Made by a program: the position numbers and the translations under genes. Below are positions 6,100 to 51,291 of a DNA stretch of 64,000 nt, in pieces. The notes below the pieces were generated by a model, which saw only the letters and a program-made list of their open reading frames with translations, had not been told where the DNA came from and searched no databases. The stretch is from Meiothermus cerbereus DSM 11376. GTDB taxonomy: Bacteria; Deinococcota; Deinococci; Deinococcales; Thermaceae. The stretch spans positions 1 through 64,000 of the forward strand of contig NZ_JHVI01000010.1 of assembly GCF_000620065.1 (NCBI RefSeq), in the 5' to 3' direction. Each line of letters begins with the position of its first letter. Position 1 is the first letter of the stretch.

Positions 6100-6163
6100 A
6101 CAAACCCCTCCATTTGACCAACCCAACATGCCCTTGTTGGGTTTACCAGCCGTAGCTAGGGCT

Positions 6164-7033
6164 TTAGCGCTCGCCCCGCCGATAAGGTTTGCCCAACGCT
6201 TCAGGGGCGTTGCCCTGCTGCCCACGCAGCCCCGACAAAGCCAGCACAAGTATAACCAGAAGATAGGGCAGGCTGGCAAATACTTCCGAAGGAATGGCCG
6301 CCTGGCCCTGGAGCCGGAACTGAAGGTAGTAGAGCAAGCCAAAAAAGATGGCCCCAAACACCGCCCGCACGGGACTCCAACCCACAAAGATTACCAGCGC
6401 CACCGCAATCCAGCCCAGCCCGGCGGTCATGCCATCGGTCCAGGAGGGGCGGTAGACCAGCGAGAGGTAGGCACCGGCCAGCCCGGCCAGGGCACCCCCC
6501 GCCGCAACCGCCGCATACCGCACCCCCAGCACATTAAGGCCCAGCAGATCGGCTGCTGCCGGGTTCTCCCCCACCGAGCGCAGCGAGAGGCCCAGCCGGG
6601 TCGCATAGAACACGAAACTCAGCAAAACTGCCAGCATGATAGCCCCCAGGGTGAAAGGCCACTCGGGGGGCTGGTTAAAGAGCGGCAGCCCCTCGAAGCG
6701 CTTACCCAACAGACCGGCCGTGCCCAGGCCCACCATGGTCAGGGCCAGACCCGAGACAAACTGGTTGGCTTGCAGGGTAATGGTTACGAAGCCGTGCAGC
6801 ATGGCGGCCAGGGCGCCCGCCAGCATGGCCGCCAGCACCGCCAGCCAGAGGTTGCCATCGCCCGCGCTGCCATAGGCCACCGCAAAACCGGCCAGCGCGC
6901 CCAGGGCCATCATGCCTTCCACCCCCAGGTTGACCACCCCGGCGCGCTCGTTCAGGATGGCCCCCAGGCAGGCCAGGAGCAAAGGGGTACCAAAGGAAAG
7001 GGCTCGAGCGAGGGCGTTGGCGATCTCTTCCAT
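6164..7033 (-). CDS. BMP-type ABC transporter permease (second permease subunit)
   Basis: Integral membrane protein of 289 residues with about eight hydrophobic helices, of the YufQ/NupQ-like branch of the BPD_transp_2 permeases. Typical segments are NERAGVVNLGVEGMMALGA near residues 28-46 and SVGENPAAADLLGLNV near 170-186. A ribosome binding site AAGGAGT precedes ATG 7033. The partner permease lies 1.58 kb upstream because an IS200/IS605-type element and vapBC remains separate the two. In related systems these permease genes are adjacent, so the gap looks like a later insertion. Transcription from the upstream operon promoter may therefore be weakened here. Confidence 0.88.
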   Translation of the reverse strand: MEEIANALARALSFGTPLLLACLGAILNERAGVVNLGVEGMMALGALAGFAVAYGSAGDGNLWLAVLAAMLAGALAAMLHGFVTITLQANQFVSGLALTMVGLGTAGLLGKRFEGLPLFNQPPEWPFTLGAIMLAVLLSFVFYATRLGLSLRSVGENPAAADLLGLNVLGVRYAAVAAGGALAGLAGAYLSLVYRPSWTDGMTAGLGWIAVALVIFVGWSPVRAVFGAIFFGLLYYLQFRLQGQAAIPSEVFASLPYLLVILVLALSGLRGQQGNAPEALGKPYRRGER

Positions 7034-7059
7034 ATCTCACAAGACTCCTTTCGTGGATG

Positions 7060-7079
7060 CTCCGCATTTCAATGCGGAG
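7060..7079. repeat. Left-end hairpin of the IS200/IS605-type element
   Basis: CTCCGCATT and AATGCGGAG form a perfect 9-bp stem closed by only two unpaired bases. It sits 65 bp before the tnpB start, where single-strand recognition hairpins of this transposon family lie. Confidence 0.6.
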
Positions 7080-7144
7080 AGGAAACGAAAGCCGAGCGAA
7101 GCTCGGTGCGGGGTCGCCAGCTCGGTGATATGATTCATGCAGGT

Positions 7145-8215: not shown

Positions 8216-8283
8216 GATGCTGTTCATGGCTATCGTTCCACCTGCAAGCCTCGGACTTCAGTCCGGGGTAGATGACAACAGTA
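8090..8283 (+). ncRNA. Predicted omega/reRNA scaffold of the TnpB element
   Basis: In studied TnpB systems the guide RNA starts inside or just after the 3' end of tnpB and runs through the right end into flanking DNA, which becomes the guide. Here the right-end hairpin at 8249-8268 would be the 3'-most scaffold stem and the guide would start after about 8283-8323. The limits are estimates from family knowledge; only the hairpin is seen directly. Confidence 0.4.
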
Positions 8284-8338
8284 TGCAACTCAGGCCCTGG
8301 AAGCGCCTGAAGTCCTGAATGCTGTCAGGAAGCCACAT
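8258..8338 (-). pseudogene. Remnant of a vapC (PIN toxin) start, broken after five codons
   Basis: An ATG at 8338 overlaps the end of the antitoxin frame in another frame, as VapB-VapC pairs do. It reads MWLPD, the usual first residues of one class of PIN-domain toxins (MWLPDVNVW-like), and then departs into unrelated codons (SIQDFRRFQG...) that stop at 8258 inside the IS right end. The rest of the toxin is missing. The break falls near 8323. The MWLPD match is short, so the identity rests mainly on its position after a VapB-type gene. Confidence 0.45.
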
Positions 8339-8561
8339 GCTCATCCAAAAGACCCCATAGCTCCGCATGCGTGCAAGCCCTTATCCTGCGCCCTGCCACA
8401 GGCACGACGGGCAGGGTGGGTTGAGCTGTACTGGTGGCTTGACGGTTCAAACCCTCCTCCAAGCACCTCAGCACTATTTCCCGCAGGGGTTTTCCCTCCC
8501 GAACGGCCAACAGCTTGAGTCGCTTGTACAGGTCATCGGGCAAGTCCAGCTTGGTTCGCAT
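8325..8561 (-). CDS. VapB-like ribbon-helix-helix antitoxin, orphan
   Basis: A 78-residue protein. The N-terminal half (MRTKLDLPDDLYKRLKLLAV, then GKPLREIVLRCLEEGLNRQ) is a ribbon-helix-helix DNA-binding domain. The C-terminal half (LPVVPVAGRRIRACTHAELW, then GLLDEH) matches the toxin-binding tail of VapB antitoxins, which normally lead straight into a VapC gene. Here only a five-codon stub of such a gene follows, so the antitoxin appears to have lost its partner. It lies between an IS200/IS605-type element and a permease gene, in the orientation of the transport operon. Confidence 0.7.
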   Translation of the reverse strand: MRTKLDLPDDLYKRLKLLAVREGKPLREIVLRCLEEGLNRQATSTAQPTLPVVPVAGRRIRACTHAELWGLLDEHVAS

Positions 8562-8615
8562 AAGTTCGTACCAGCATAACCGCTTCCGGCAGCCATTGGG
8601 GTCGTCCAGTACTTT

Positions 8616-9671
8616 TTACCTTCCCCAGCGAAGACGGTAGCGCAAAAATAGCTCCGAGCCAATCAGGCAAAAAAGAATTACCCCGCTAAACACGTCCACA
8701 ATGCGAAAGGGCATGTTCAGGCTCACCTTCAACAGGTCGCCCCCCGCCAGCACCAGGCCCATCAGGGGAGCGGTGAGGAGCACCAGCGCAGGGTGCCCCC
8801 GGGCCAGCCAGGCCACGATGATGGCGGTAAAGCCATAGCCGGAAGAGAGCTGGCTGGGCTCAATCAGGCGGTGGTGGATGCCGGCGATCTCGCCCACCCC
8901 AGCCAGACCGGCCATACCCCCGGTGATGAGGGCCAAGAGCAAGAGCACCCGGCCCTGCGCGATGCCCAAATAGCGGGCCGCCCCGGGGTTCTCGCCCGCG
9001 ATGCGCATGCGGAAACCCAGGGTGGTGCGAAAGAGCAAAAACTGCAACAAAAGGGCCAGCAGCACGCCCAAAAGCAAGGTGGGCCAGTGGACGCTCGAGC
9101 CCGGCCAAAGCGGAATCTGCTGGTACTCGGCAAAACGGTCGGAGTAGATGTAGCCCCGCACGTCCTTGCCGCGCCAGGGGCCGTTAATCAGGAAGATCAC
9201 CAGCGACTGGGCCACGTAGTTGAGCATCAGGGTGGAGAGGATCTCGTTGACGCTGAAGCGCAGCCGCAGCCAGGCCGCCAGGCCGCACCACAGCGCCCCG
9301 CCCAAAGCCCCGGCCAGCGCCATCGCCGGCAGGCTCAGGGGAGCGGGCAGGGGCAGGAAGAGGGCCACCCCCGCCGCCAACACCGCCCCCAGCAAAAGCT
9401 GCCCCTCGGCCCCGATGTTGTAGAACTGGGTGCGAAAAGCCAGGGTGAGGCCCACCCCAATCAGGAGCAAGGGAATGCTGCGGCGCAGGATCTCCTGCCA
9501 GCCTCTGGCCTCCAGCAGGGTTCCGGTAAACATGAGCCGGTAGACCTCGAGCGGATTCTGCCCATAGGCCACAAACACCCCCCCCACCAGCACAAAGGCC
9601 AGCCCCAGCGCAGCCAGCGTAACCCCCAGCATCCGCCAGGGCGAGGCGTGGGCGAGGGGCTCGAGCCTCAT
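8616..9671 (-). CDS. BMP-type ABC transporter permease (first permease subunit)
   Basis: Membrane protein of 351 residues with nine or ten hydrophobic helices, of the NupP/YufP-like branch of BPD_transp_2 permeases. Family segments include LTLAFRTQFYNIGAEGQLLL around residues 78-97, NEILSTLMLNYVAQSLVIFL around 143-162 and MRIAGENPGAARYLG around 222-236. Its start overlaps the stop of the ATPase gene by 4 bp (ATGA), so the two are translationally coupled. The permease partner lies beyond the IS200/IS605-type insertion. Together they should form the channel of a purine nucleobase or nucleoside importer. Confidence 0.88.
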   Translation of the reverse strand: MRLEPLAHASPWRMLGVTLAALGLAFVLVGGVFVAYGQNPLEVYRLMFTGTLLEARGWQEILRRSIPLLLIGVGLTLAFRTQFYNIGAEGQLLLGAVLAAGVALFLPLPAPLSLPAMALAGALGGALWCGLAAWLRLRFSVNEILSTLMLNYVAQSLVIFLINGPWRGKDVRGYIYSDRFAEYQQIPLWPGSSVHWPTLLLGVLLALLLQFLLFRTTLGFRMRIAGENPGAARYLGIAQGRVLLLLALITGGMAGLAGVGEIAGIHHRLIEPSQLSSGYGFTAIIVAWLARGHPALVLLTAPLMGLVLAGGDLLKVSLNMPFRIVDVFSGVILFCLIGSELFLRYRLRWGR

Positions 9672-11164
9672 ACCTCACCTCCGGTCATCAGCAGGCCAAT
9701 CTCTTCGCGGGTGAGGCTACCGACCGCAAAAGGGCCCTTGAGCCATCCCCGGTAGAGCACCCCTATCCGGTCGCAGAGCGAAAGCAGTTCTTCCAGGTCT
9801 TCCGAGACCAAGAGCACCGCCGCCCCCTGCTGGGTTTTTTCCAGCAAGACCCGGTGCACCTGCTCGGTGGCCCCAATATCCAGGCCGTAGGTGGGGTGGA
9901 CGGCCAGAATGAGCTGGGGCTGCCCGGCCAGCTCGCGGGCCAGAATAACTTTTTGGATGTTGCCGCCGGAAAGGAGCCTCGAGGGGGTATGCAGGCTGGG
10001 CGTGGCGATGGCATAAGCCCGCACCCGGGCCTCGGCCTGGGCCAAAAAAGCCGCCGGGTCGAGCAAAGCCCCACGGGCCAGCGGGGGCCGGTCGAAGGTA
10101 CGCAGGGCCAGGTTTTCGGTCACGCTCATGCTGGGAACCGTGCCCATGTGAATGCGGTCTTCGGGGATGTGGGCCACACCCAGCTCAAACAGGCGGGCCG
10201 GATGGGCTGGCAGGGGCTGCCCCAGCAGACGCAAAGAACCCGCTGTGGGGTTGCGCAATCCTGCCAGCACCTCCACCAGCTCGCTCTGGCCATTGCCCGC
10301 CACCCCGGCGATGCCCAGAATCTCCCCGCGGTGCAGTGCAAAGGAGACCCCCCGCAAGGCCGGCAGGTTGCGGCTCGAGCGGGCCTCGAGTTGCTCGACC
10401 TCGAGTACCACATCGCCCACCTGCGCGGCTTGCCGTTTGCGCTCGAAGCTCACCGTGCGCCCTACCATCAGCTCGGCCAGCCTGGCCTTGCTGGCCTCTT
10501 CTTTAGGCAGGCTGCCCACCACCCGCCCCCGGCGCAGCACCGTGCAGCGGTCGGCAATGGACAGCACCTCCTCGAGCTTGTGGGAGATAAAAACGAGCGA
10601 CTTGCCCGCCGCCCGTAGCTCGCGCATGACCCTGAACAAGGCCTCGGCCTCCTGGGGGGTGAGCACGCTGGTGGGCTCGTCCAGGATCAGCACCTTAGCC
10701 CCCCGCAACAAGGCCCGCACAATCTCCACCCGTTGCTTCTCACCGGGTGAAAGCTGGTAAACCCGGGCCCTGGGGTCTATCTGCAAACCATAGCCCTGGG
10801 CCATCCGCTCCACCAGCGGCACAATGCGCTGGGCAGGCAGCAGGGGGCTGCCAATGCCCAATGCCAGGTTCTCCGCTACGGTGTGGCGGTTTACCAGCGT
10901 GGGGTGCTGGGGCACCAGCCCGATGCCCAGCCTTAGCGCGTCCATCGGCGAGCCAATCCTGGCCGGACGGCCCTCCACCAGAATCTCCCCCTCGTCGGGG
11001 CGATACAGCCCATAGAGGATGGAGACCAGGGTGGACTTACCCGCCCCATTTTCCCCCAGCAGGGCCAGCACCTCGCCGGGGTAGACCTCGAGGCTCACCC
11101 CGTCGTTGGCGACCACCCCCGGAAAGCGCTTGGTGATGTTTTTCAGCTCGAGCAGGGCCGGCAT
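9668..11164 (-). CDS. Nucleoside/nucleobase ABC transporter ATP-binding protein (two ABC cassettes)
   Basis: A 498-residue protein with two fused ATP-binding cassettes, like RbsA and the BMP-system ATPases. Cassette 1 has Walker A GENGAGKS (about residues 36-43), signature LSPGEKQR and Walker B VLILDEPTS. Cassette 2 has a degenerate Walker A (GVAGNGQSE), signature LSGGNIQK and an altered Walker B (LILAVHPTYGLD), as usual in this family, where the second site is catalytically weak. It energises import with the two permeases downstream and the BMP binding protein. xdhC ends 26 bp upstream, so uptake and oxidation of the purine are encoded in one transcription unit. Confidence 0.9.
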   Translation of the reverse strand: MPALLELKNITKRFPGVVANDGVSLEVYPGEVLALLGENGAGKSTLVSILYGLYRPDEGEILVEGRPARIGSPMDALRLGIGLVPQHPTLVNRHTVAENLALGIGSPLLPAQRIVPLVERMAQGYGLQIDPRARVYQLSPGEKQRVEIVRALLRGAKVLILDEPTSVLTPQEAEALFRVMRELRAAGKSLVFISHKLEEVLSIADRCTVLRRGRVVGSLPKEEASKARLAELMVGRTVSFERKRQAAQVGDVVLEVEQLEARSSRNLPALRGVSFALHRGEILGIAGVAGNGQSELVEVLAGLRNPTAGSLRLLGQPLPAHPARLFELGVAHIPEDRIHMGTVPSMSVTENLALRTFDRPPLARGALLDPAAFLAQAEARVRAYAIATPSLHTPSRLLSGGNIQKVILARELAGQPQLILAVHPTYGLDIGATEQVHRVLLEKTQQGAAVLLVSEDLEELLSLCDRIGVLYRGWLKGPFAVGSLTREEIGLLMTGGEV

Positions 11165-11190
11165 TGCCGCAAATCATACCTAAAACCGCG

Positions 11191-12027
11191 TTACTCGGCC
11201 ACCTTTTCCCGGGCCGGCCTAGCCTGGAGGGTGCCGAAAATATGCGGCAGCAGTTGGGCCGCCGTGGCAATGGCAATGGCCTCCGGCGCTTTGCTTTTGG
11301 CCCCCGGAAGACCAATGGGGGTGGTCACCCGCTTGAAATCGGCCTCGGAAAAGCCCTGCTGGCCCAGCTTCTGCCGGAAGCGGGCCCACTTGCTAGCGCT
11401 GCCGATCAGGCCGATATACCCCAGGTCGGCCCGGCGCAAAGCCCGCTCGAGCACGAACAAATCCTCGGCGTGGTCGTGGGTCAGGATGACCAGGTGCGCG
11501 CCCTCTGGCAGGTCGTTTACCACCCCGTCCAGGATGGGCGCGTGGAAAGTTTTGATCTCGGCCTGGCCCTGGCGCAGCGGTTCCAGTCGCTCAGGGGCGA
11601 GCATCTGGGCCCTCGAGTCGGCCAGCCAGAGCGCTATGGGACAGATGGAGAGGACCCTGGCCAGCGCCAGCCCCACGTGTCCCAGTCCGAAAATCGCCAC
11701 GGTGGGCTTGTGCGAGATAACCGGCTCGAGCAACAGGCTCACCTCACCCCCGCAGCACTGCACCCCATACTCGGCAAGGGCGTTTTCGGTGAGCCGGATG
11801 GTGTGCATCTGGGGGGCCAGGGCACGCTCGGCCAGCATCTGCCGGGCCAGATGGATGGCGGTGGCCTCGAGGTTCCCACCCCCAATGGTGCCGTAGGTCG
11901 CGCCCGCTGTGACCAGCATCTTGGCCCCGGCCTCCTGGGGGGCATGGCCCCGCACCGCCACCAACGTGACCATGACCAGCGGCTCCTGCCTGGCCACCAG
12001 CTCGCGGAAGTGCTCAAACCAGCGCAT
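11191..12027 (-). CDS. xdhC: XdhC-type molybdenum cofactor insertion protein
   Basis: A 278-residue protein of the XdhC/CoxI family, which binds the molybdenum cofactor, helps its sulfuration and inserts it into xanthine dehydrogenase. The N-terminal XdhC_CoxI domain has GAKMLVTAGATYGTIGGGNL around residues 34-53 and EYGVQCCGGEVSLLLEP around 86-102, including the paired cysteines. The C-terminal half is a Rossmann-like domain (VAIFGLGHVGLAL, then LIGSASKWARF). The gene follows xdhB after 6 bp and precedes the transporter ATPase. Confidence 0.92.
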   Translation of the reverse strand: MRWFEHFRELVARQEPLVMVTLVAVRGHAPQEAGAKMLVTAGATYGTIGGGNLEATAIHLARQMLAERALAPQMHTIRLTENALAEYGVQCCGGEVSLLLEPVISHKPTVAIFGLGHVGLALARVLSICPIALWLADSRAQMLAPERLEPLRQGQAEIKTFHAPILDGVVNDLPEGAHLVILTHDHAEDLFVLERALRRADLGYIGLIGSASKWARFRQKLGQQGFSEADFKRVTTPIGLPGAKSKAPEAIAIATAAQLLPHIFGTLQARPAREKVAE

Positions 12028-12033
12028 GGTCTC

Positions 12034-14357
<2,324 letters not shown>

Positions 14358-14361
<4 letters not shown>

Positions 14362-15755
14362 GCCCGCACCTCCGCAGTTTCGGCGTAGAACTTTTGCAGC
14401 AGGCTCGAGAGCATAGCGCTGCGGTAGGCCGCGCTGCCGCGGTGGTCGTCAATGGGCCTGAACTCGCTGCGGATCAGCTCGCTGGCGGCCCGCACGGTGC
14501 GCTCATCCCAGGGCTTGCCCTCCAGGAAAGCCTCGGTCTGGCTGGCCCGCACGGGGGTGGGGGCCACCCCGCCCAGGCCGATGCGGATGGACTGCACCCG
14601 GCCCCCCTCCAGCCGCAAGGCAAAGGCCGCGGCCACGGTGGAGATATCGTCCATACGGCGCTTGGACACCTTGTAGAAGCGGGCCTGGGGGGCCAGGGGC
14701 AGGGGGATTCGCACTGCCCGGATGACCTCGCCGGGCTCAAAGGCGGTCTGGCGGTAGCCGGTGAAGAAGCGCTCGAGCGGCAGCGCCCGCTCCCCCGCTG
14801 CGCCGGTAAGCACCACCTCGGCCCCCAGGGCCAAGAGCACCGGCGGCCCGTCGCCAATGGGTGAGGCCGTGCCCAGGTTGCCCCCTAGGGTAGCCCGGTT
14901 GCGGATCAGGCGGGAGGCAAACAGGGGAAACCACTGGGCCAAGAGGGGAATGCGCCCTTCCAGCCAGTGCTCGAGCTCGGAAAGGGTTACGCCCGCGCCA
15001 ATCTCGACATAGTTCTGGCCCCAAAAAAGGGTCTGAAGTTCTGGCACCTGGCTGATGTCCACCTGCACCTCCGCTCGAGCAAAGCGCTGGTTGACCTCCA
15101 CCACCCAGTCGGTTCCACCCGCTACCAGCTTGGCCGCAGGGTGCTCGGCCAGGATGCGAAAAAGCTCGGGCAGGGATAGGGGCCGGTAAAAGCGCGGAGA
15201 TGACCCGGTTTTGGGGCTGTACTCGAGCGACTTCACCGCCTCCACCGGGGTGTTTAGCCGCTGCGCCAGGGGGTCGTGGGGCGCAGGCTGGCCCAGCGAG
15301 AGGGCGGCATCCCGGATGGGCCGGTAGCCGGTGCAGCGGCAGAGGTTGCCGGAAAGGGCCTCGAGGTCGAAGTTGCTCCGATTTTTGCGGTAATATTCTG
15401 CCGCCATGCTCACCACAAAACCCGGCGTGCAGTAGCCGCACTGCGAGCCGCCCTGGAGCATGGCCTCCTGCACCGGGTGCAGCCTCTCCCCCTGCGCCAG
15501 CCCCTCCACCGTCCAGACCTCCTGGCCCGCCAGGCTGGGCAGCAGCAGCAGGCAGCCGTTTACGGCCTCGAGCCGCGCGCCCTGGCCCTCGGGCCGCAGC
15601 AAAAGCAGCGCGCAGGCCCCGCACTCCCCCTCGGCGCAGCCCTCTTTGCTGCCTATCCAACCTTGCTGACGCAACCAGGAGAGTGCCGTGGTGTGGGGGT
15701 CTACACCTGAAACCCCAACCGTTTGCCCGTTCAACTTAAAACTGATTTCGCCCAC
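14358..15755 (-). CDS. xdhA: Xanthine dehydrogenase, iron-sulfur and FAD subunit
   Basis: A small subunit of about 465 residues that passes electrons from the molybdenum site to NAD. Residues 1-80 form a plant-type 2Fe-2S domain (CAEGECGAC). Residues 80-160 form the helical 2Fe-2S domain (SQCGYCTPGF and NLCRCTGYRP). Residues 185-460 form the FAD domain (LVAGGTDW, RNRATLGGNLGTASPIGD, VSKRRMDDIS). GTG 15755 is chosen because GGGGAGGG lies five bases upstream; a TTG at 15758 is the alternative. First gene of the leftward purine unit. No convincing -35 box was found in the 290 bp upstream. Confidence 0.9.
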
Positions 15756-16048
15756 CAAAGCCCTCCCCGTGCGCTCAGGCTATAAAACCGGTCCGTGATG
15801 CCTCTGCTCGAATTGCATTGCCTGCCAGGGTCTGCCTATAGCTTTTTATTGTACAACCGAGCGGCCCAGGAACCGCAGTCTGCCGGTGCGTGAACCACCC
15901 CCCCTGCCGTGCAGGCAACTAAAGCACCTGGCAGCCACAGCGCTACCGCAGGACAACCTCGAGCAGTGCCGTATGGCCGTCTTGAAGCAATCTAGACCGG
16001 GTTTGCTCAGCCGCTATCCAGGGGTAAGCGGCATTTTCACTGTGGGAA
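15756..16048. other. Intergenic region upstream of xdhA
   Basis: A 293-bp stretch between xdhA and vapC with no credible gene; the frames here lack ribosome sites and coding character. An 8-bp palindrome TTGTACAA lies at 15849-15856, in the region where an xdh promoter or operator would be expected, and AT-rich TATAG-like hexamers occur on the minus strand, but none has a matching -35 box. Confidence 0.3.
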
Positions 16049-16441
16049 TTACGAACCGCGGATCACTTCCACGCCGACCCCCGACACCTGCTCCCAGGTG
16101 CGATCAGCCGTAAGGGCTACCATTCCGTGGGCCATTGCCGTGGACAAACAAGCCCGATCCCCCAGGGAAAGGCCCAGGGTACGGGTGGCTGGGTCCAGCT
16201 CCCCAGCGATGCGGGCCGTTTCAATGGTAAATGGCAGAACCTGCAAGCCCAGGGCCAGCAGCCTGGTCAGGATACGCCCAGGCTCTTTTCCCTTCCCCTT
16301 TAGCTTCCCCAACACCTCAGCCAGGTTCACCGCGCTTATGGCTGCCCCGTCCCTAAGGGCGTCCTGCACCCGTTCCCAGCCCATTTCCTGTTGGAGGTAG
16401 GCCAGAACAGCGGAGGCATCCAGGCAGTACCGCTCAGGCAT
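16049..16441 (-). CDS. vapC: VapC-type PIN-domain toxin
   Basis: A 130-residue PIN-domain ribonuclease. The acidic residues expected for metal-dependent RNA cleavage are present: Asp8 in CLDASAVLAYL, Glu42 in NLAEVLGKL, Asp96 in LGDRACLS and a C-terminal Asp in ALTADRTW. It overlaps the upstream antitoxin gene by 8 bp, the usual order for a type II toxin-antitoxin pair. Target RNA is unknown. It separates the xanthine dehydrogenase unit from clpA. Confidence 0.9.
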   Translation of the reverse strand: MPERYCLDASAVLAYLQQEMGWERVQDALRDGAAISAVNLAEVLGKLKGKGKEPGRILTRLLALGLQVLPFTIETARIAGELDPATRTLGLSLGDRACLSTAMAHGMVALTADRTWEQVSGVGVEVIRGS

Positions 16442-16688
16442 CCTTGACCGCTTCCCTACGGCGTTCTTCTAAAAGCTCCTCTGTCAGACTTTCCTCAATA
16501 TCGGCCACCTCCGCCCAAAGCTCGGCTTCCACCTTCTCCCAGGGCTCGAGGATGAGGCGGCCCCCCTCCACCAGGACCACCAACCGGCTCCCCGGCTTCA
16601 CCCCCAGGCTCTGGCGGATGTGTTTGGGGAGAAGCAGCCGGCCCTGGTAATCTAGGGTAAGTGTGGCAAATTCTGCTTCTTTCACCAT
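16434..16688 (-). CDS. vapB: AbrB/MazE-type antitoxin of the vapBC pair
   Basis: An 84-residue antitoxin. Residues 8-50 form an AbrB/SpoVT swapped-hairpin DNA-binding domain (LTLDYQGRLLLPKHIRQSLG, then VKPGSRLVVLVEGGRL). The acidic tail (ADIEESLTEELLEE) would bind the toxin. A TATACT box 6 bases before the ATG suggests a leaderless transcript. It should neutralise the VapC made from the overlapping gene downstream and repress the pair. Confidence 0.88.
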   Translation of the reverse strand: MVKEAEFATLTLDYQGRLLLPKHIRQSLGVKPGSRLVVLVEGGRLILEPWEKVEAELWAEVADIEESLTEELLEERRREAVKDA

Positions 16689-16694
16689 AAAGGT

Positions 16695-23141: not shown

Positions 23142-23476
23142 AACGGAGCCATTGCGAGGGTTTGCCGCTGCTGGCCCCACCGCCTGGACTGCCCCCCAGC
23201 AGCCACACCCCTGCATTTGATACCGGATTCAAAAAGATACTCTTCAAACAAAAAACATCAAGGGGCTATCTTTTTGAATCCTAGAGCACTCCCTTCGGTC
23301 GGGTTAGTTCGTCACCGTTCGGTGACGAACTAACCGAATCTGGTATGAGTGGTATCATAGGAGTTATACAAGCAGCCAACAGGACTTGAACCGGCCTGAG
23401 CGCGACACCTGGGTGAGGTCAAAAAGGGCGATTTATCAATATTCCAACGCAATACCTTGAGTCAAGGAGGGAACAC
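23142..23476. other. Intergenic region holding a 131-bp palindromic element
   Basis: This 335-bp gap contains the repeat at 23218-23348 and, to its right, AT-rich DNA leading to the dodecin gene. No further open frame has a plausible start and coding character. AAGGAGG at 23464-23470 is the dodecin ribosome site. Confidence 0.6.
23218..23348 (+). repeat. Palindromic MITE-like element, copy 1
   Basis: The ends TGATACCGGATTC (23218-23230) and GAATCTGGTATGA (23336-23348) are near-perfect inverted repeats. Inside are two further palindromes: a 15-bp pair at 23225-23239 and 23267-23281 (GGATTCAAAAAGATA type), and a 16-bp pair at 23302-23317 and 23320-23335 (GGTTAGTTCGTCACCG type). A second copy of the right part follows hemL at 43885-43983. 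Confidence 0.7.
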
Positions 23477-43887: not shown

Positions 43888-43983
43888 ATCCTAGAGCACA
43901 CCCCTCGCTTCGCTCGGCGAAAAAGCGTATCCCGTTGGTCGGGTTAGTTCGCCACTATTCTGTGAGGAACTAACCGAATCTGG
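43885..43983 (+). repeat. Palindromic MITE-like element, copy 2 (starts in the hemL stop)
   Basis: Begins TGAATCCTAGAGCAC, where TGA is the hemL stop codon, and ends GAACTAACCGAATCTGG. GGTTAGTTC (43942-43950) pairs with GAACTAACC (43967-43975). The block at 43901-43940 has an inverted relative at 63915-63968. Copy 1 is at 23218-23348. Confidence 0.65.
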
Positions 43984-44007: not shown

Positions 44008-44505
44008 ATGAACCTTGCAGCGATTAACCACCTTTCCAGGGAGGCTTTTGTTGAGCAACTGGGCTGGGTCTTTGAACACTCTCCCTGGGTGGCCGAAAAA
44101 GCCTGGGAACACCGCCCCTGGGCCAGCCTCGAGGCCCTGCACCACTCGCTGGTGCAGGCAGTGCAAGAAGCCCCCAAGGAGGCCCGGCTGGCCCTGATCC
44201 GGGCCCACCCCGACCTGGGCAGCCGCGCCCGCATGGCCCAGGCCTCGGTCGCGGAGCAAAAGGGCGCCGGCCTCGACGCCCTTACGCCCGCCGAGTTCGA
44301 GCGCATCCAGACCCTAAACCGGGCCTATACCGACAGGTTTGGCTTCCCCTTCATTCTGGCGGTGCGGGGCAAAAGCAAAGCCGAGGTCTTTAAGGCTATG
44401 GAGGAAAGGCTCCCCAACCCCCCCGAGCTCGAGTTCGAGACCGCCCTGGAGGAGATTTACAAGATCGCACGCTTTCGCCTTGCCGACCTGCTGGGCCAAG
44501 ATTAG
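44008..44505 (+). CDS. OHCU decarboxylase (2-oxo-4-hydroxy-4-carboxy-5-ureidoimidazoline decarboxylase)
   Basis: A 165-residue helical enzyme that converts OHCU to S-allantoin. Family residues are visible: FVEQLGWVFEHSPWVAEKAW at residues 14-33, IRAHPDLGSRARMA with the catalytic histidine (His71), and RFGFPFILAVRGKSK around 110-125. A CATAAT box ends 8 bases before the ATG. First gene of the rightward urate cluster, with puuD 18 bp downstream and hiuH next; the three genes cover urate to allantoin. Confidence 0.93.
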   Translation: MNLAAINHLSREAFVEQLGWVFEHSPWVAEKAWEHRPWASLEALHHSLVQAVQEAPKEARLALIRAHPDLGSRARMAQASVAEQKGAGLDALTPAEFERIQTLNRAYTDRFGFPFILAVRGKSKAEVFKAMEERLPNPPELEFETALEEIYKIARFRLADLLGQD

Positions 44506-44523
44506 ACTCTATCTGAATCAGCC

Positions 44524-45840
44524 ATGAACCCCCTCGACCAAGACCGCCTCCGCATCGTCAAATGGCCCTGGATTTTAGCCATCCTGGCCCTATTTGCTGT
44601 GGCTTTAGCCCTCACCCTGGCGGGCGGCTGGCAGGCCCACGCCCGCGAATGGCTCAACCTGATCGTGCGCTGGCTGCACATTATCTACGGCATCGCCTGG
44701 ATTGGGGCCAGCTTCTACTTCATCTTCTTAGAGAACGCCCTCGAGCGCCAGGGCGTGCGGGCCGAGCTCTCCGGCAACCTCTGGGCCATCCACGGCGGGG
44801 GCATCTACTACCTGGAAAAATACAAAACCGCCCCCAAAGAGCTACCCAGATACCTGCACTGGTTCAAGTGGGACGCCTACCTGACCTGGGTCACGGGGTT
44901 CTTGCTGCTCGTCATCGTCTACTACGCCGACCCCAGAACCATTCTGCTGGCCCCCGGCAGCACCCTGCCGGGCTGGGCCGCCATTTTAGTAGCGGTAGGA
45001 AGCCTCATCGCAGGCTGGCTGATTTATGTAGGACTGTCCAGCACCCAGCTCTTATACCGCCCTGCGCTGTTTCTGCTGGTGGGGGGGGTGCTGGTTACGC
45101 TGGCGGCTTACCTGCTGGGGCAGGTCTTTAGCGGGCGCGGCACCTTCATGCACATTGGGGCCATGCTGGGGACCATCATGGCGGCCAACGTCTTTTTCGT
45201 GATTATCCCCTCGCAAAAGAAGCTGGTGCGGGCCGCGCAGAACGGCAAAACCCTCGACCCCGATTTTGTGGCCTGGGTGCAGCTTCGCTCGCGCCACAAC
45301 AACTACCTCACCCTGCCGGTGCTCTTCACCATGATCGCCCACCACTTCCCCATGACCTACAGCGGCGGGGCCCACTGGCTCATCCTGATTCTGCTCTTTG
45401 GGGCCGGAGTAGCGGTGCGGCACTTTATCAACGTGACCGAAAAAGAGCACCACACAACCCTGGTAGAAGGCGGGGCCATGCCCTATCTGCTGGTGCTGGC
45501 GGCGGCCTTGCTGCTGGGAGCTTTCTACCTGACCGCGCCCCGCCAGAGCCCAGAAGCGCTCAAAGAGCCCCCGGTGGCTTTTGCCGAGGTGCAGGACATT
45601 ATCGTGCAGCACTGCCAGATGTGCCACGCCGCCCGCCCCACCCAGCCCGGCTTCGCCTCGGCGCCGGGCGGGGTGATGCTGGACACCCCCGAGCATATTG
45701 TGGCGCAGGCGCAGAAGATCAAGCAGGTTGCGGTGGACACCCAGTACATGCCCCTGCTGGTGCCGGGGGTTCCGGCCATGACCCCCGAGCAGCGGGCCAG
45801 GCTGGGGGCCTGGGTAGCCCAGGGCGCACCGGGGCCGTAG
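44524..45840 (+). CDS. puuD: PuuD-type membrane urate hydroxylase with cytochrome c domain
   Basis: A 438-residue protein. The first 345 residues form a membrane domain of about eight helices (WLHIIYGIAWIGASFYFIFL near 48-67), and the C-terminal 90 residues form a cytochrome c domain with heme motif CQMCH at residues 364-368 and a distal VDTQYMPLL region with a likely Met ligand. PuuD proteins oxidise urate to 5-hydroxyisourate and pass electrons to cytochrome c, in place of oxygen-using uricase. No cofactor-free uricase or FAD urate oxidase is in the window, and hiuH and OHCU decarboxylase flank it, which supports the call. Confidence 0.9.
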   Translation: MNPLDQDRLRIVKWPWILAILALFAVALALTLAGGWQAHAREWLNLIVRWLHIIYGIAWIGASFYFIFLENALERQGVRAELSGNLWAIHGGGIYYLEKYKTAPKELPRYLHWFKWDAYLTWVTGFLLLVIVYYADPRTILLAPGSTLPGWAAILVAVGSLIAGWLIYVGLSSTQLLYRPALFLLVGGVLVTLAAYLLGQVFSGRGTFMHIGAMLGTIMAANVFFVIIPSQKKLVRAAQNGKTLDPDFVAWVQLRSRHNNYLTLPVLFTMIAHHFPMTYSGGAHWLILILLFGAGVAVRHFINVTEKEHHTTLVEGGAMPYLLVLAAALLLGAFYLTAPRQSPEALKEPPVAFAEVQDIIVQHCQMCHAARPTQPGFASAPGGVMLDTPEHIVAQAQKIKQVAVDTQYMPLLVPGVPAMTPEQRARLGAWVAQGAPGP

Positions 45841-45849
45841 GATTAAGGC

Positions 45850-46206
45850 ATGGCTCGGCTTTCGACCCACGTTCTGGATACCGCCCACGGGCGCCCGGCG
45901 GCGGGGCTCGACCTCGAGCTCTACCGCATCGGCCCTGCAGGTGAGCGCACCTTCATCACCGCCGCCAGCACCAACGCCGATGGCCGCACCGACCAGCCCC
46001 TGCTCGCAGGCGAAACCATCGCGGTGGGCCTTTACGAGTTGGTCTTCCACGTGGCCGCCTACTTCAAAGCCCAGGGGGTGCCCCTGCCCGACCCGCCTTT
46101 TCTGGACGAGGTGCCCATCCGCTTCGGCATCGCCGACGAAAAGGGGCATTACCACGTGCCGCTGCTCCTCTCACCCTACGGCTACAGCACCTACCGGGGT
46201 AGCTAG
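45850..46206 (+). CDS. hiuH: 5-Hydroxyisourate hydrolase
   Basis: A 118-residue transthyretin-like enzyme. It shows the N-terminal motif [20 protein letters not shown] with the first catalytic histidine, and the C-terminal signature [19 protein letters not shown], ending in the family hallmark YRGS. It hydrolyses 5-hydroxyisourate made by PuuD to OHCU. The gene starts 9 bp after puuD. Confidence 0.96.
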
Positions 46207-46207
46207 T

Positions 46208-46303
46208 ATGAACCCCACCCGAAGCGTTCCGCTGAGCGCAAGTAAAAGCTTGTTGATTACGACCGCCTCGAGTTCCAGCGCTTCGGGCGGGGGCCCCAAA
46301 AAA
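46208..46303 (-). repeat. Dispersed hairpin repeat, copy 3
   Basis: Inverted copy, directly after the hiuH stop. On the minus strand it reads GGGGCCCCCGCCCGAAGCGC at one end and CGCTTCGGGTGGGGTTCAT at the other. The arms CCCGCCCGAAGCG and CGCTTCGGGTGGG pair with one G-T wobble. Confidence 0.7.
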
Positions 46304-46443
46304 AGAACAACTCAAGCAGATTTCTTACTGGTGCCCCTTCCTGCCCGGTTACCTATTTTTTGCGCTTTCCACGGCACAACACTCAGGCCCTCCACGCAAA
46401 CCATGTGAGCTGCGACCAAGGCTCCACCTTACCCGACCCGACC

Positions 46444-47688
46444 ATGAGTCTTTCCGACGTAAACTTCTCCAAACTGGCCCTAGAAGCCCTCGAGCGCTGC
46501 CGTGTGCTGGCGCGTTTCTCGGAAGAGCCGGGCCGCCTGACCCGCACCTTTCTCTCACCCCCCATGCGGGCCGTACACGAATCCCTGACCGGCTGGATGA
46601 GGGAGCTGGGCATGGCGGTACGCACCGATGCAGTGGGCAACCTGATTGGGCACTACCCCGGCCACTCCCCCGATGCCCCGCTGTTTCTGCTGGGCTCGCA
46701 CGTGGACACCGTGCGCGATGCGGGCCGCTACGACGGCCTTCTGGGGGTCACGCTGTCGCTGGCTTTGGTGAAGGCCTTGGAAGGCCGAAGATTGCCTTTT
46801 GCCATTGAGGTGATTGCCTTCTCGGAGGAGGAGGGCGTGCGCTTTGGGATGCCTTTTCTGGGCAGCAAAGCGGTAACCGGTCAGTTTACGCCCGAGCTGC
46901 TGAAGCTGCAAGATGCCCAGGGGCAGACCGTAGAGGAAGCCATTCGGGCCTTTGGCCTCGAGCCCGCCCATATACCGCAGGCCGCCTACAACCCGGCTCA
47001 GGTTAAGGGCTTTTTGGAGTTTCACATCGAGCAGGGGCCGGTGCTGGAGGCCCTGGGGTATCCGCTGGGCCTGGTGGAGGGCATCGTGGGGCAGAGTCGG
47101 CTCGAGGTGGCCTTCCGCGGCCAGGCCGGCCACGCCGGCACCACCCCCATGCACCTGCGCAAAGATGCCCTGGCCGGGGCTGCCGAATGGATGGTTCTGG
47201 TTGAACGCGAAGCCCGCGAGGAGCAAGGCCTGGTGGCCACGGTGGGCATGATTACGGCCCTGCCGGGGGCGGCCAATGTGATTCCGGGGGAGGTGCAGAT
47301 GAGCCTGGATGTGCGCCACCCCTACGACGAGGTGCGCAGCCTGGCGGTAGCCAACCTGGTGACCCGGGCCCAGCAGGTGGCCCAGCGCCGGGGGCTCGAG
47401 CTCGATTACCGCACCCTATACGAGCAGGCTGCGGTTCCCTGCGACCCTGAGCTGAACGAGCGGCTGGCCCTGTCGGCCCAGGCCCAGGGCTACCCGGTGC
47501 ACCGGATGGTCTCGGGGGCCGGCCACGACGCCATGATTATGAGCGCGCTGTGCCCCTCCACCCTGCTGTTTCTGCGAAGTCCGGGCGGCCTTTCGCACCA
47601 CCCGGAAGAGTCGGTCTGGCCCCAGGACGCAGAAGCCGCCCTGCGGGTGGGGCTGGATTTCTTGCACCGGCTAGCCGCCGAGGCTTGA
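46444..47688 (+). CDS. allC: Allantoate amidohydrolase
   Basis: A 414-residue M20-type metal amidohydrolase. ATG 46444 is chosen because the family sequence starts there (FSKLALEALERCRVLARFSE). Metal ligands are in GSHVDTVRDAGRYDGLLG (around residues 80-97), FSEEEGVRFG (around 124), FHIEQGPVLE (around 195) and GAGHDAMIMS near the C terminus. The motif set fits enzymes that cleave allantoate to ureidoglycine, CO2 and ammonia. allB follows after 13 bp. A second amidohydrolase at 49999 is closer to ureidoglycolate amidohydrolases, so the assignment of this one to allantoate is by similarity and exclusion. Confidence 0.85.
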   Translation: MSLSDVNFSKLALEALERCRVLARFSEEPGRLTRTFLSPPMRAVHESLTGWMRELGMAVRTDAVGNLIGHYPGHSPDAPLFLLGSHVDTVRDAGRYDGLLGVTLSLALVKALEGRRLPFAIEVIAFSEEEGVRFGMPFLGSKAVTGQFTPELLKLQDAQGQTVEEAIRAFGLEPAHIPQAAYNPAQVKGFLEFHIEQGPVLEALGYPLGLVEGIVGQSRLEVAFRGQAGHAGTTPMHLRKDALAGAAEWMVLVEREAREEQGLVATVGMITALPGAANVIPGEVQMSLDVRHPYDEVRSLAVANLVTRAQQVAQRRGLELDYRTLYEQAAVPCDPELNERLALSAQAQGYPVHRMVSGAGHDAMIMSALCPSTLLFLRSPGGLSHHPEESVWPQDAEAALRVGLDFLHRLAAEA

Positions 47689-47701
47689 TAGGGGAGTTAC
47701 G

Positions 47702-49066
47702 ATGCTCGAGCTAATTGTGCGTGGTGGAAAGCTGGTAATCCCGGAAGGGGTGCGGCAGGCCGATCTGGGCATCTCGGGGAGGCAGATCGTGCAGGTGGCC
47801 CCGGAGATTGCCGAACCGGCCCGGCAGGAGATCAATGCCTCGGGCTTGTACGTTTTTCCGGGCCTGATTGACGTGCACGTGCACTTCAACGAGCCGGGAC
47901 AGGCCCACTGGGAGGGCATCGCCTCGGGCAGCGCGGCCCTGGCAGCAGGCGGCGGCACGGCCTTCTTCGATATGCCCCTCAACTCGTTGCCCTGCACCCT
48001 GGATGGCCCCTCCTTCGACCAGAAGCTCTCGGCCATGCAGGCCCACTCCCACACCGATTTTGCGCTATGGGGTGGCCTGACCCCAAACAACCTGCAGCAT
48101 ATGCCCGATCTGGCCGAACGCGGCGTAATCGGTTTCAAGGCCTTCATGTGCAACTCCGGCCTGCCCCAGTTTCCCGCCTGCGACGACGCCACTTTGTATG
48201 TGGGCATGCGCCTGGCCGCCCAGCTTGGGCTGCCGGTGGCGGTACACGCCGAGTCGGAAGCCCTGACTGCCTACCTGGCCCAGCAGAAGCGCCAGCAGGG
48301 CCAGACCACCTGGCGCGACTACCTGGACTCGAGGCCGGTCTACACCGAGCTCGAGGCCATCCAGCGGGCCTTGCTGTTTGCCCGCGAGACCGGCTGCCGG
48401 CTGCACATCGTACATATCAGTTCGGGCGCTGGGGTGGTCATGGCCGCCGAGGCCAGGGCCAAGGGGGTGGACGTGAGCCTCGAGACCTGCCCCCACTACC
48501 TGGCCTTTACCGCAGAAGACCTGGAGCGGCTGGGAGCGCTGGGCAAGTGCGCCCCGCCCTTCCGCTCCGAGCTGCAACGAACTCTGTTGTGGGTGCAGGT
48601 GCTGCAAGGGCAGGTAGATATCATTGGCTCCGACCACTCCCCCAGCCCACCCGAGATGAAGCAGGGCCATGACTTCTTCAGCCTGTGGGGCGGCATCGCG
48701 GGGGTGCAGTCTACCCTGGGGGTGCTGCTGAGCGAGGGTTGGCGCCAGCGCGGCCTGGCCTTAGAGCGGCTGGCCGCCCTGCTGGCAGCCAACCCCGCCA
48801 AGCGCTTTGGCCTGGCCCAGAAAGGCCGCCTGGCCGAAGGCTACGATGCCGACTTCGCCCTGGTAGACCTGGGCCAAACCTACACCTTGAGACAGGAAGA
48901 CCTGTACTACCGTCACCCCATCTCCCCCTATCTGGGCCGTACCTTTGTTGGGGTGGTGCAGGAGACCTGGTTGCGTGGGCAGCGGGTGTATGCCGGGGGT
49001 AAGATAGAAAAGCCCCGTGGGGTTCGTTTACTCAAGGGGACGATCCCCTTCGGGACAGAGCCCTGA
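47702..49066 (+). CDS. allB: Allantoinase
   Basis: A 454-residue amidohydrolase that opens the allantoin ring to allantoate. Metal ligands: His59 and His61 in DVHVHFNEPG, carboxylated Lys146 in GFKAFMCNSG, then AVHAESEAL, HIVHISSGAG and IGSDHSPSPPEMK. These match allantoinases better than dihydropyrimidinases or dihydroorotases. The last codons (GTIPFGTEP) and the stop are encoded by the first unit of a 46-bp tandem repeat, so the C terminus has probably been rewritten by it. Confidence 0.93.
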   Translation: MLELIVRGGKLVIPEGVRQADLGISGRQIVQVAPEIAEPARQEINASGLYVFPGLIDVHVHFNEPGQAHWEGIASGSAALAAGGGTAFFDMPLNSLPCTLDGPSFDQKLSAMQAHSHTDFALWGGLTPNNLQHMPDLAERGVIGFKAFMCNSGLPQFPACDDATLYVGMRLAAQLGLPVAVHAESEALTAYLAQQKRQQGQTTWRDYLDSRPVYTELEAIQRALLFARETGCRLHIVHISSGAGVVMAAEARAKGVDVSLETCPHYLAFTAEDLERLGALGKCAPPFRSELQRTLLWVQVLQGQVDIIGSDHSPSPPEMKQGHDFFSLWGGIAGVQSTLGVLLSEGWRQRGLALERLAALLAANPAKRFGLAQKGRLAEGYDADFALVDLGQTYTLRQEDLYYRHPISPYLGRTFVGVVQETWLRGQRVYAGGKIEKPRGVRLLKGTIPFGTEP

Positions 49067-49126
49067 TGGGCCTGTTCACCAGGGGACGATCCCCTTCGGG
49101 ACAGAGCCCTGATGGGCCTGTTCATC
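49035..49126 (+). repeat. Tandem 46-bp repeat across the allB stop
   Basis: Two units, 49035-49080 and 49081-49126, identical at 45 of 46 positions. Each begins with AGGGGACGATCCCCTTCGGG, where GGGG and CCCC can pair. The stop of allB lies in unit 1. A third occurrence of the hairpin core is at 63876-63892. Confidence 0.85.
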
Positions 49127-49137
49127 TAGAGGAATTT

Positions 49138-49887
49138 ATGAGTCTGACCGGTTTTACCCGAACCCGCGTAACCCCCGACCACGCCCTCTTGACCCCCGAT
49201 ACCTTTGTGCGCTCGAGCCTGCCCGGCTGGAGCCAGGCTGCCTGCATCGTGCATATCTCCCCCGAGATGGGGGCCCGCTTCATGATGTACACCGTAGAGA
49301 TGCAGTCCGGCAGTACCGGCCAGATGAGCCTGCTGGACATCCAGCGCTTTGCCTATGTGCTCGAGGGCGAAGTGGCGCTCGAGGTAGGGGGAGCCCGGCA
49401 TACCCTATGGGCCAACAACTACGTGTACCTGCCTGCCAACACCCCACACCATTTTGCAGCGGCATCCGGCTGCCGGATGGTGGTTTTCGACAAACCCTAC
49501 CAGGCCTTGGCCGGCATGGACGTACCCCAGGTGGTGCTCGGACACGAACCAGATACCCCCAGTAGCCCGCTGATGGGCGATGAAGCCCTGCAGGTGCGCC
49601 TGCTCCTGCCCGACAATTTCTCCTTCGATATGGCCGTTAATACCATGACCTTTGCTCCCGGAGCCCACCTCTCCCTGGTAGAAACCCATGTCATGGAGCA
49701 TGGCCTGTTGTTTTTGCAAGGCGGCGGGGTATACCGCCTGGGTGACCACTGGTACACCGTGCAGGCTGGCGATGTGATCTGGATGGCCTCCTACTGCCCG
49801 CAGTGGTTTGGGGCGCTGGGCAAAACACCCAGCAAGTACCTGATTTACAAAGACGTCAACCGGCACTCGCTCGAGCTGCTCTCCTGA
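49138..49887 (+). CDS. allE: (S)-Ureidoglycine aminohydrolase
   Basis: A 249-residue bicupin. ATG 49138 is chosen because AGAGGA precedes it and family similarity begins at FTRTRVTPDHALLTPDTFV; an ATG at 49066, overlapping the allB stop, would add 24 repeat-encoded residues. The C-terminal cupin has the manganese site (ETHVMEHGLLFL around residues 182-193, then a His/Gln near QWFG). It releases ammonia from ureidoglycine to give S-ureidoglycolate. It lies between allB and the ureidoglycolate amidohydrolase gene. Confidence 0.93.
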   Translation: MSLTGFTRTRVTPDHALLTPDTFVRSSLPGWSQAACIVHISPEMGARFMMYTVEMQSGSTGQMSLLDIQRFAYVLEGEVALEVGGARHTLWANNYVYLPANTPHHFAAASGCRMVVFDKPYQALAGMDVPQVVLGHEPDTPSSPLMGDEALQVRLLLPDNFSFDMAVNTMTFAPGAHLSLVETHVMEHGLLFLQGGGVYRLGDHWYTVQAGDVIWMASYCPQWFGALGKTPSKYLIYKDVNRHSLELLS

Positions 49888-49921
49888 TGCAGGCCGCACA
49901 GGGGCGGTAGAGGCTGGTGGG

Positions 49922-49957
49922 CTGACTGGGGTAAACTGCTCGTGCTAGATTTACCCC
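49922..49957 (+). promoter_or_regulatory. Promoter with overlapping operator-like palindrome
   Basis: CTGACT (49922-49927), an 18-bp spacer and TAGATT (49946-49951) form a plausible promoter. A perfect inverted repeat, GGGGTAAA (49928-49935) and TTTACCCC (49950-49957), overlaps the spacer and -10 box. Such a site could bind a regulator of the last ureide gene; alternatively it is a hairpin in the read-through RNA. Confidence 0.4.
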
Positions 49958-49998
49958 GAGCCTTAGGCATAGCCTGCAAAATTTTTTCGGAGTAGCCC

Positions 49999-51291
49999 AT
50001 GATTGTCCGACCCCTGGTAGACCAAGAACGCATTATCCGCGAACTCGAGGCCCTGGCGGAGTTTTCCGACACCCCCAAGCCAGCCATTACCCGCATTCTC
50101 TTTACCAAGCCCGACCTCGAGGCCCGCGCTTACCTCAAGAGCTTGTGTGAAGAGGCTGGATTAAGCCTACGCGAAGATGGGCTGGGCAACATCTTTGCCC
50201 GCTGGGAGGGTTCCGCCCCTGATCTACCGGCTGTTGGCACGGGCTCCCACTTCGACGCCATCCCCTACGCCGGCATGTACGACGGCACCGTGGGCGTGCT
50301 GGGGGGTCTGGAGGCCATCCGTTCACTCCAGCGCAGTGGTTTTAAGCCCTACCGCTCCATCGAACTGCTCATCTTCACCGCCGAAGAGCCCACCCGTTTT
50401 GGCGTGGGTTGCCTGGGAAGCCGGGCCCTGGCCGGGGTTTTGAGCCCCGACTCGCTGCGCCAGCTTAAGGATCAGGAAGGGCGCAGCCTGGAGGAAGTCC
50501 GCTGGGAAGCCGGTTATATGGGCCGCCTGGAGGATGTGCAGCTTCCCCAGGGCTACTACTCGGCTTTCGTGGAACTGCACATCGAGCAAGGCCCCTTGCT
50601 CGAGCAAGAACGGGTGCCCCTGGGCATCGTCACGGCCATCGCGGCTCCGGCTGCCCTGCGGGTAAACCTGGAAGGTGAGGGCGGGCATGCCGGAACCGTG
50701 CTGATGCCCGACCGCCGCGATGCGCTGTGCGCCGCTGCCGAAATTATCCTGGGCGTGGAAGCCTTTGCCAAAAACAGTGGCAGCATCAATACCGTAGCCA
50801 CCACCGGCTTTTGTGAGGTCTATCCCAACGCGGTCAATAGCGTGCCCAGCCGGGTCAAGCTCGAGATAGACATTCGCGATGTTGACCAGTCTCGCCGGGA
50901 TCAGGTGATTCGCAACGTGATTCAGGGAGTGGAGCAGGTCTGCACCCGGCGCGAAATAAAATACAGCGTAGACATCATCAACGTAGACCCCCCGGCCAAA
51001 GCGGGCTCTGAAGTGCTAAAAGCGCTGGTGGCCTCTTGTGGCGAGGCCGGGGTCAAGTTCAAGCTGATGGTGAGCCGGGCCTACCACGACTCTTTATTCA
51101 TGGCCCGGATTGCCCCTACCGCCATGCTCTTTATCCCCTGCCGGGGAGGGGTTAGCCACCGTCCGGACGAGTACGCCTCCCCCGAGGATATCGCCAGAGG
51201 CACCTACGTGCTGGCCCTGACGCTGGCCAAGCTCTCGCTGGCCGAAGATAAAACAGTCTCCAAGGAAGACCCGGTTCTACTGGATGACTAG
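49999..51291 (+). CDS. Ureidoglycolate amidohydrolase (M20 family)
   Basis: A 430-residue amidohydrolase. GSHFDAIPYAGMYDGTVGVL (around residues 79-98), FTAEEPTRFGVGCLGSRALA (around 131-150), ELHIEQGPLLEQ (around 192) and SRAYHDSLFMA (around 360) carry the metal ligands. The EEPTRFG and SHxDAIPY patterns resemble plant ureidoglycolate amidohydrolases more than allantoate amidohydrolases. It would release glyoxylate, CO2 and ammonia, the last step of ureide breakdown. It follows allE by 111 bp that hold a possible own promoter. Assignment among M20 ureidases is by motif memory and pathway logic, so an allantoate or carbamoyl-amino-acid role is possible. Confidence 0.8.
   Translation: MIVRPLVDQERIIRELEALAEFSDTPKPAITRILFTKPDLEARAYLKSLCEEAGLSLREDGLGNIFARWEGSAPDLPAVGTGSHFDAIPYAGMYDGTVGVLGGLEAIRSLQRSGFKPYRSIELLIFTAEEPTRFGVGCLGSRALAGVLSPDSLRQLKDQEGRSLEEVRWEAGYMGRLEDVQLPQGYYSAFVELHIEQGPLLEQERVPLGIVTAIAAPAALRVNLEGEGGHAGTVLMPDRRDALCAAAEIILGVEAFAKNSGSINTVATTGFCEVYPNAVNSVPSRVKLEIDIRDVDQSRRDQVIRNVIQGVEQVCTRREIKYSVDIINVDPPAKAGSEVLKALVASCGEAGVKFKLMVSRAYHDSLFMARIAPTAMLFIPCRGGVSHRPDEYASPEDIARGTYVLALTLAKLSLAEDKTVSKEDPVLLDD

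Follow-up and report, generated by a model that had tools for sequence, protein, structure and literature searches.

Among the systems described so far, membrane urate oxidation of the PuuD type has been characterised genetically in Agrobacterium fabrum, where deletion of puuD abolished growth on urate; overexpression of the protein was unsuccessful (PMC4562309). We analysed a stretch of 64,000 nucleotides of Meiothermus cerbereus DSM 11376 (positions 1 to 64,000 of contig NZ_JHVI01000010.1, hereafter the window) that encodes a relative of this protein. The window PuuD has the same full-length membrane domain as its Agrobacterium counterpart (COG3748, Urate_ox_N), the same CXXCH motif and conserved arginine, and a methionine likewise placed 41 residues past the haem-binding histidine (His344 and Met385 in Agrobacterium); in both cases the gene is linked to uraH and uraD. 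The window PuuD, however, appears to stand within a longer route. We find it very probable that two gene groups of the window together form a pathway for scavenging purine nitrogen, consisting of import, the xanthine dehydrogenase XdhABC, PuuD and a final branch that would release ammonia only. Our analysis establishes which genes are present, the families to which their products belong, the conserved residues, the co-occurrence of the genes and the alternatives that are missing; the catalytic activities, the substrate of the transporter and the route of the electrons we infer.

The group around puuD comprises seven co-directional genes at 44008-51291, all with intact reading frames (aa, amino acids; bit scores are followed by model cut-offs):

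44008..44505, plus strand: uraD, 2-oxo-4-hydroxy-4-carboxy-5-ureidoimidazoline (OHCU) decarboxylase, 165 aa; NCBIfam TIGR03164, 206 bits (cut-off 96)
44524..45840, plus strand: puuD, membrane urate oxidase/hydroxylase with a C-terminal cytochrome c, 438 aa; PF06181, 357 bits
45613..45627, plus strand: codons of the CQMCH haem c motif (PuuD residues 364-368), read from the sequence
45850..46206, plus strand: hiuH/uraH, 5-hydroxyisourate hydrolase, 118 aa; TIGR02962, 135 bits (cut-off 87)
46444..47688, plus strand: M20a, predicted allantoate amidohydrolase (AAH), 414 aa; NF006775, 597 bits (cut-off 479)
47702..49066, plus strand: allB, allantoinase, 454 aa; TIGR03178, 561 bits (cut-off 358), and NF004839, 691 bits (cut-off 631)
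49141..49887, plus strand: (S)-ureidoglycine aminohydrolase (UGlyAH, allE-like), 248 aa; TIGR03214, 312 bits (cut-off 200)
49999..51291, plus strand: M20b, predicted (S)-ureidoglycolate amidohydrolase (UAH), 430 aa; best relative in the PDB 4PXE, 469 bits, with tree and motifs

The HiuH protein ends in TYRGS, so that the YRGS signature is present alongside the family match. Spacing is tight between uraD and puuD (18 nucleotides, nt), puuD and hiuH (9 nt) and M20a and allB (13 nt), and wider between hiuH and M20a (237 nt), allB and UGlyAH (74 nt) and UGlyAH and UAH (111 nt); the layout is operon-like, with a single transcript being putative. On one side the cluster adjoins hemL together with further haem-biosynthesis genes, on the other an L20-like ribosomal-protein gene (names assigned by eye). 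The same gene order recurs in named Meiothermus and Calidithermus genomes, and the arrangement is thus not due to chance. A preliminary description of the window had proposed that these genes cover all the steps after urate, and the frames, the family matches and the conserved order bear this out.

The nature of the final steps turns on the two M20 amidohydrolases. M20b is predicted to be a ureidoglycolate amidohydrolase: its best relative among solved structures is the Arabidopsis UAH (469 bits, the next kind of enzyme reaching 279), the two form a clade at 100/100 support (in a tree with few references and some long branches), and M20b has the UAH-type motifs EEPTRF (EEP, not EEG), HAGxVLM and SRAYHDS (SRAYHD, not SGAGHD or SGAAHD). 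The NCBIfam model that names it "allantoate amidohydrolase" is passed by a mere 0.3 bits (399.3 against 399). We think that a bacterial UAH is worth flagging, as the name given by the standard model masks an ammonia-releasing end of the pathway. M20a retains the metal-ligand motifs and SGAGHDA and joins, at 98/99, the M20 proteins of alphaproteobacteria whose genes adjoin puuD; AAH is its best predicted assignment because it is clustered with UGlyAH, which needs the AAH product. This assignment draws on the NCBIfam equivalog model and on context and is less certain than that of M20b: in the tree M20a stands apart from E. coli AllC, itself a long branch, and phmmer ranks a Geobacillus-type L-carbamoylase first among its solved relatives (3N5F; 286 bits against 193 for E. 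coli AllC). Given that match, and the functionally mixed nature of the M20 family, both proteins might be taken for N-carbamoyl amino-acid hydrolases, the second half of the cluster then serving hydantoin or pyrimidine catabolism instead of ureides. We regard this as extremely improbable, however, in view of the clade and motifs that M20b has in common with the Arabidopsis enzyme, and of M20a passing the AAH equivalog, grouping with the PuuD-linked proteins and lying between hiuH and allB with UGlyAH downstream. Neither M20 groups with carbamoylases in the tree, a grouping that the preliminary description had named as fatal to its proposal, and a third, more distant M20 paralogue is found on another contig, adjoining an NMT1-type ABC transporter. 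A ureide pathway with a plant-like end, formed by two M20 enzymes in place of a lyase, thus stands as that description had it.

At the head of the cluster, the membrane domain of PuuD matches Pfam Urate_ox_N (PF06181, DUF989) with 357 bits against a cut-off of 26.9, over model positions 2-291 of 295. The cytochrome domain falls slightly under the Pfam cut-off (Cytochrom_C, 20.0 against 21.3 bits); the haem ligands are nonetheless in register, C364, C367, H368, M409 and R424 aligning with the family residues Cys340, Cys343, His344, Met385 and Arg398 described for PuuD (PMC4562309), so that the CQMCH cytochrome c domain noticed earlier is real. An apparent lack of the domain in one further PuuD (L027) was explained by a gap of N in the contig, the domain being found further along. 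Whether urate electrons do pass from this haem to the respiratory chain, without hydrogen peroxide being made, is a different matter, and of that part of the preliminary description the conserved haem c domain stands while the route is extrapolated from Agrobacterium PuuD. PuuD could give its electrons straight to oxygen, or the cytochrome c could merely scavenge superoxide, with no respiratory coupling; the discoverers of PuuD themselves raised the superoxide alternative, and azide had no specific effect (PMC4562309). On the other hand, every complete PuuD that we compared retains haem c with its ligands, wild-type Agrobacterium on urate showed no rise in catalase, and ccmC mutants of Sinorhizobium have a purine phenotype (PMC4562309). 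We therefore consider an uncoupled PuuD unlikely and retain the respiratory route as the probable one.

The preliminary description had the pathway begin at urate. It is indeed complete from there on, yet its start within the window lies earlier, in a second group of genes at 4951-15758 on the minus strand that encodes XdhABC and a candidate importer, a BMP-type ABC transporter:

14358..15758, minus strand: xdhA, xanthine dehydrogenase small subunit (2Fe-2S/FAD), 466 aa; TIGR02963, 463.5 bits, under the cut-off of 467
12034..14361, minus strand: xdhB, xanthine dehydrogenase molybdopterin subunit, 775 aa; TIGR02965, 978 bits (cut-off 849.5)
11191..12027, minus strand: xdhC, xanthine dehydrogenase (XDH) accessory protein, 278 aa; TIGR02964, 244 bits (cut-off 162)
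9668..11164, minus strand: ABC transporter ATPase (double-ATPase, BMP type), candidate purine importer; best NCBIfam model NF047930, 503 bits, under the cut-off of 670
8616..9671, minus strand: ABC transporter permease 2; homologue in the alphaproteobacterial locus L015
about 7037-8215, plus strand: gene of a TnpB-family RNA-guided nuclease, between the permease genes
6164..7033, minus strand: ABC transporter permease 1, separated from permease 2 by the TnpB gene; homologue in L015
4951..6099, minus strand: BMP-family substrate-binding protein of the same transporter; NF047927, 41 bits, under the cut-off; 36% identical homologue in L015

In four relatives (L005, L010, L013 and L061) xdhAB lie directly downstream of UAH, and the two gene groups of the window thus form one block there; the window xdhB is 75% identical to the xdhB adjoining UAH in L010. 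For the transporter, the pointers come from outside the phylum. In L015, xdhAB, a homologous BMP-type transporter and puuD lie together, with the transporter between xdhAB and puuD, and in Aminobacter a BMP-type transporter set is directly upstream of puuD. Because of this adjacency we propose purine import as its function. A toxin-antitoxin-like pair of PIN-domain and AbrB type, recognised by eye, lies just upstream of xdhA (about 16060-16690, minus strand).

The genome, 99.99% complete, was also searched for alternatives to the steps of this pathway. It has no uricase of family PF01014, a presence of which would have spoken against the earlier proposal (flavin-dependent urate hydroxylases, HpxO/HpyO, were not part of the search), and PuuD is its sole Urate_ox_N gene; Agrobacterium likewise lacks a PF01014 uricase. 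We found no ureidoglycolate lyase (allantoicase was not searched for), no urease alpha subunit and no NCS2 permease. That uricase, ureidoglycolate lyase and urease were not found fits the combination of PuuD with an ammonia-only branch.

Put together, the BMP-type transporter would probably import purines or nucleosides, and XdhABC would convert hypoxanthine and xanthine to urate. On the cytoplasmic side of the membrane, PuuD would then turn urate into 5-hydroxyisourate, and the electrons would go to the haem c that the protein itself carries in the periplasm and from there probably to the respiratory chain. HiuH and UraD would yield (S)-allantoin, AllB allantoate, M20a (as AAH) ureidoglycine, UGlyAH ureidoglycolate and M20b (as UAH) glyoxylate. 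The branch should give four ammonia and no urea per allantoin, and the lack of urea agrees with our failure to find a urease in the genome. Besides the tree position and the best solved relative of M20a, several points weigh against this pathway: the transporter reaches its nearest NCBIfam models only under cut-off, no experiment on any Thermaceae protein of the pathway was found in the literature, and the acceptor chemistry of PuuD is putative even in Agrobacterium (PMC4562309). To these is added a transporter missing from the cluster in this strain.

In five relatives (L002, L005, L006, L008 and L012), a different ABC transporter, made of a binding protein, an ATPase and a permease, lies between hemL and uraD, and this operon of several sister species is absent here. 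We looked for it elsewhere in the genome and found only distant homologues, 31% identical or less. The junction instead holds a diverged copy of a dispersed 32-nt palindrome, GTTAGTTCGTCACCGTTCGGTGACGAACTAAC, which has copies with similar flanks at 43943-43974 and 23303-23334 of the window and about 88 sites in the genome, against no match in a backward-read control; it appears to be an element resembling a repetitive extragenic palindrome (REP) or a miniature inverted-repeat transposable element (MITE). The palindrome upstream of uraD, GTTAGTTC-N16-GAACTAAC, was considered as an operator and rejected as a dispersed repeat, having about 88 sites in the genome and none in the loci of 11 relatives. 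The pattern suggests that a rearrangement took place at a repeat. With the upstream transporter lost, the importer permeases split by TnpB and the xdh genes set apart, one might suspect a cluster in decay, or one that this strain does not use. The frames of the seven enzymes and of XdhABC are intact, however, and active-site motifs are conserved where checked; M. taiwanensis, too, is without the upstream operon at that place and has kept the enzymes. Decay or disuse thus seems very improbable to us.

A few irregularities within the cluster were noted in passing. A gene remnant in the 237-nt gap at 46207-46443 was considered and rejected: the gap does not resemble the corresponding sequence of relatives, and in two of them it is occupied by a small open reading frame that is unrelated. 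A perfect 44-nt direct repeat with 46-nt spacing (49035-49124) covers the allB stop codon, and both copies map to a single site in relatives L002 and L003. Between puuD and hiuH, Calidithermus has a phosphoesterase-like gene, and L010 and L014 have a LysE-like gene (L007, 11321-12070, and L010, 11095-11943; names by eye).

Among 111 Deinococcota genomes, PuuD is found in 26: all 18 of the genus of the window, four that belong to two neighbouring genera of the same family and another four from a single different family; there is none in the 20 listed genomes of a sister genus that is probably Thermus. The named loci belong to Meiothermus and Calidithermus species. Deinococcota PuuDs form one clade (98/96), with a PuuD of Pseudomonas aeruginosa next (94/90; several proteobacterial branches are long and the outer order is unsure), and on this basis the gene seems to have a long history in the phylum and not to be a recent acquisition here. 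Far from being peculiar to this strain, the gene set belongs to the regular complement of Meiothermus and its neighbouring genera. The preliminary description knew of no report of the full set in the Thermaceae; we, too, found no paper on a urate or allantoin pathway of Meiothermus in PubMed Central (open-access papers only, hence weak evidence of absence), yet with the set so widespread and public records routinely auto-naming the protein "urate hydroxylase PuuD", the surprise is smaller.

One feature does set the Deinococcota PuuDs apart. All those compared are extended at the N-terminus by a segment that includes a strongly hydrophobic stretch (mean Kyte-Doolittle value over 19 residues about 2.0-2.5, with the start set at the full-length Met), as opposed to none of 11 proteobacterial PuuDs, which begin 6-8 residues ahead of the first family helix; the full extension is seen also in L007, L009 and L010. 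In the window protein the extra helix spans about residues 15-33, after a positively charged N-terminus, and hydropathy and a low-confidence model suggest the usual family helices plus this one (the topology expected of the family is eight helices, N-out C-out). Lysine and arginine charges are found at the N-terminus as well as in loops I-II and V-VI, as would be expected if these loops face the cytoplasm and the cytochrome lies outside. In the membrane domain, H52, H90, H258 and H274 are invariant across 32 PuuDs, and H210 and H300 vary once each; the change of His210 to Gln in L043 (genome G023) is a natural variant for testing that residue. One could picture a distinct nine-helix urate dehydrogenase, in which these six histidines form a further redox or substrate site. 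Such an enzyme would move the electrons of urate from the cytoplasmic side to the haem c in the periplasm and on to the respiratory chain, and would stand first in a purine pathway that yields ammonia only; we offer this tentatively and find it rather doubtful. A sequence search of the PDB found no relative of PuuD among solved structures, and an AlphaFold2 model from 13 sequences (mean predicted local distance difference test score, pLDDT, 64) matched no fold in the PDB at E 0.001 or better, and we make no structural claim from it. A HemJ/CopD-like b-haem domain, brought to mind by the motif LHIIxxIxWxxxxFY, was rejected (hhalign P 0.007-0.03): controls scored as high in 2/150 and 6/150 locally shuffled sequences and, for the full protein, in one reversed control. 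PuuD could not be overexpressed in the Agrobacterium work (PMC4562309) and has no solved relative. The thermophilic PuuD may be the purifiable form and, with its signal-anchor-like extra helix, is a practical target for studying how urate electrons cross the membrane.

The proteobacterial PuuDs are about 34-46% identical to that of the window and, besides lacking the extra helix, have a stretch of 13 residues from the methionine to the arginine, against 15 in most Meiothermus PuuDs. The puuD clusters of P. aeruginosa, rhizobia and roseobacters combine the gene with uraH and often with uraD and xdhABC, as in the window. Where annotated, however, the proteobacterial puuD clusters examined continue with a PuuE allantoinase and with allantoicase and/or ureidoglycolate lyase, a urea-releasing route (allantoicase and the lyase in P. 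aeruginosa and Phyllobacterium, the lyase in Leisingera). The E. coli allantoin system (allB, allC, allE) has in common with the window the AllB and AllE-type UGlyAH families and an M20 allantoate step; it has no urate oxidation genes in the region and ends in ureidoglycolate lyase or dehydrogenase (allA, allD), whereas the window starts with PuuD and ends with UAH. M20b matches the whole of Arabidopsis UAH (PDB 4PXB/4PXE), with the motifs EEPTRF, HAGxVLM and SRAYHDSLFMARI common to both; unlike the plant enzyme, it is bacterial, its activity is a prediction, and its gene lies in an operon-like cluster with those of the earlier steps. In the few non-Deinococcota loci examined, PuuD and the UAH branch were not seen in one gene run. 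The enzymes thus belong to known families, and what seems undescribed is the lineage-specific extra helix of PuuD, the pairing of PuuD and UAH in one cluster and the corrected naming of a bacterial UAH.

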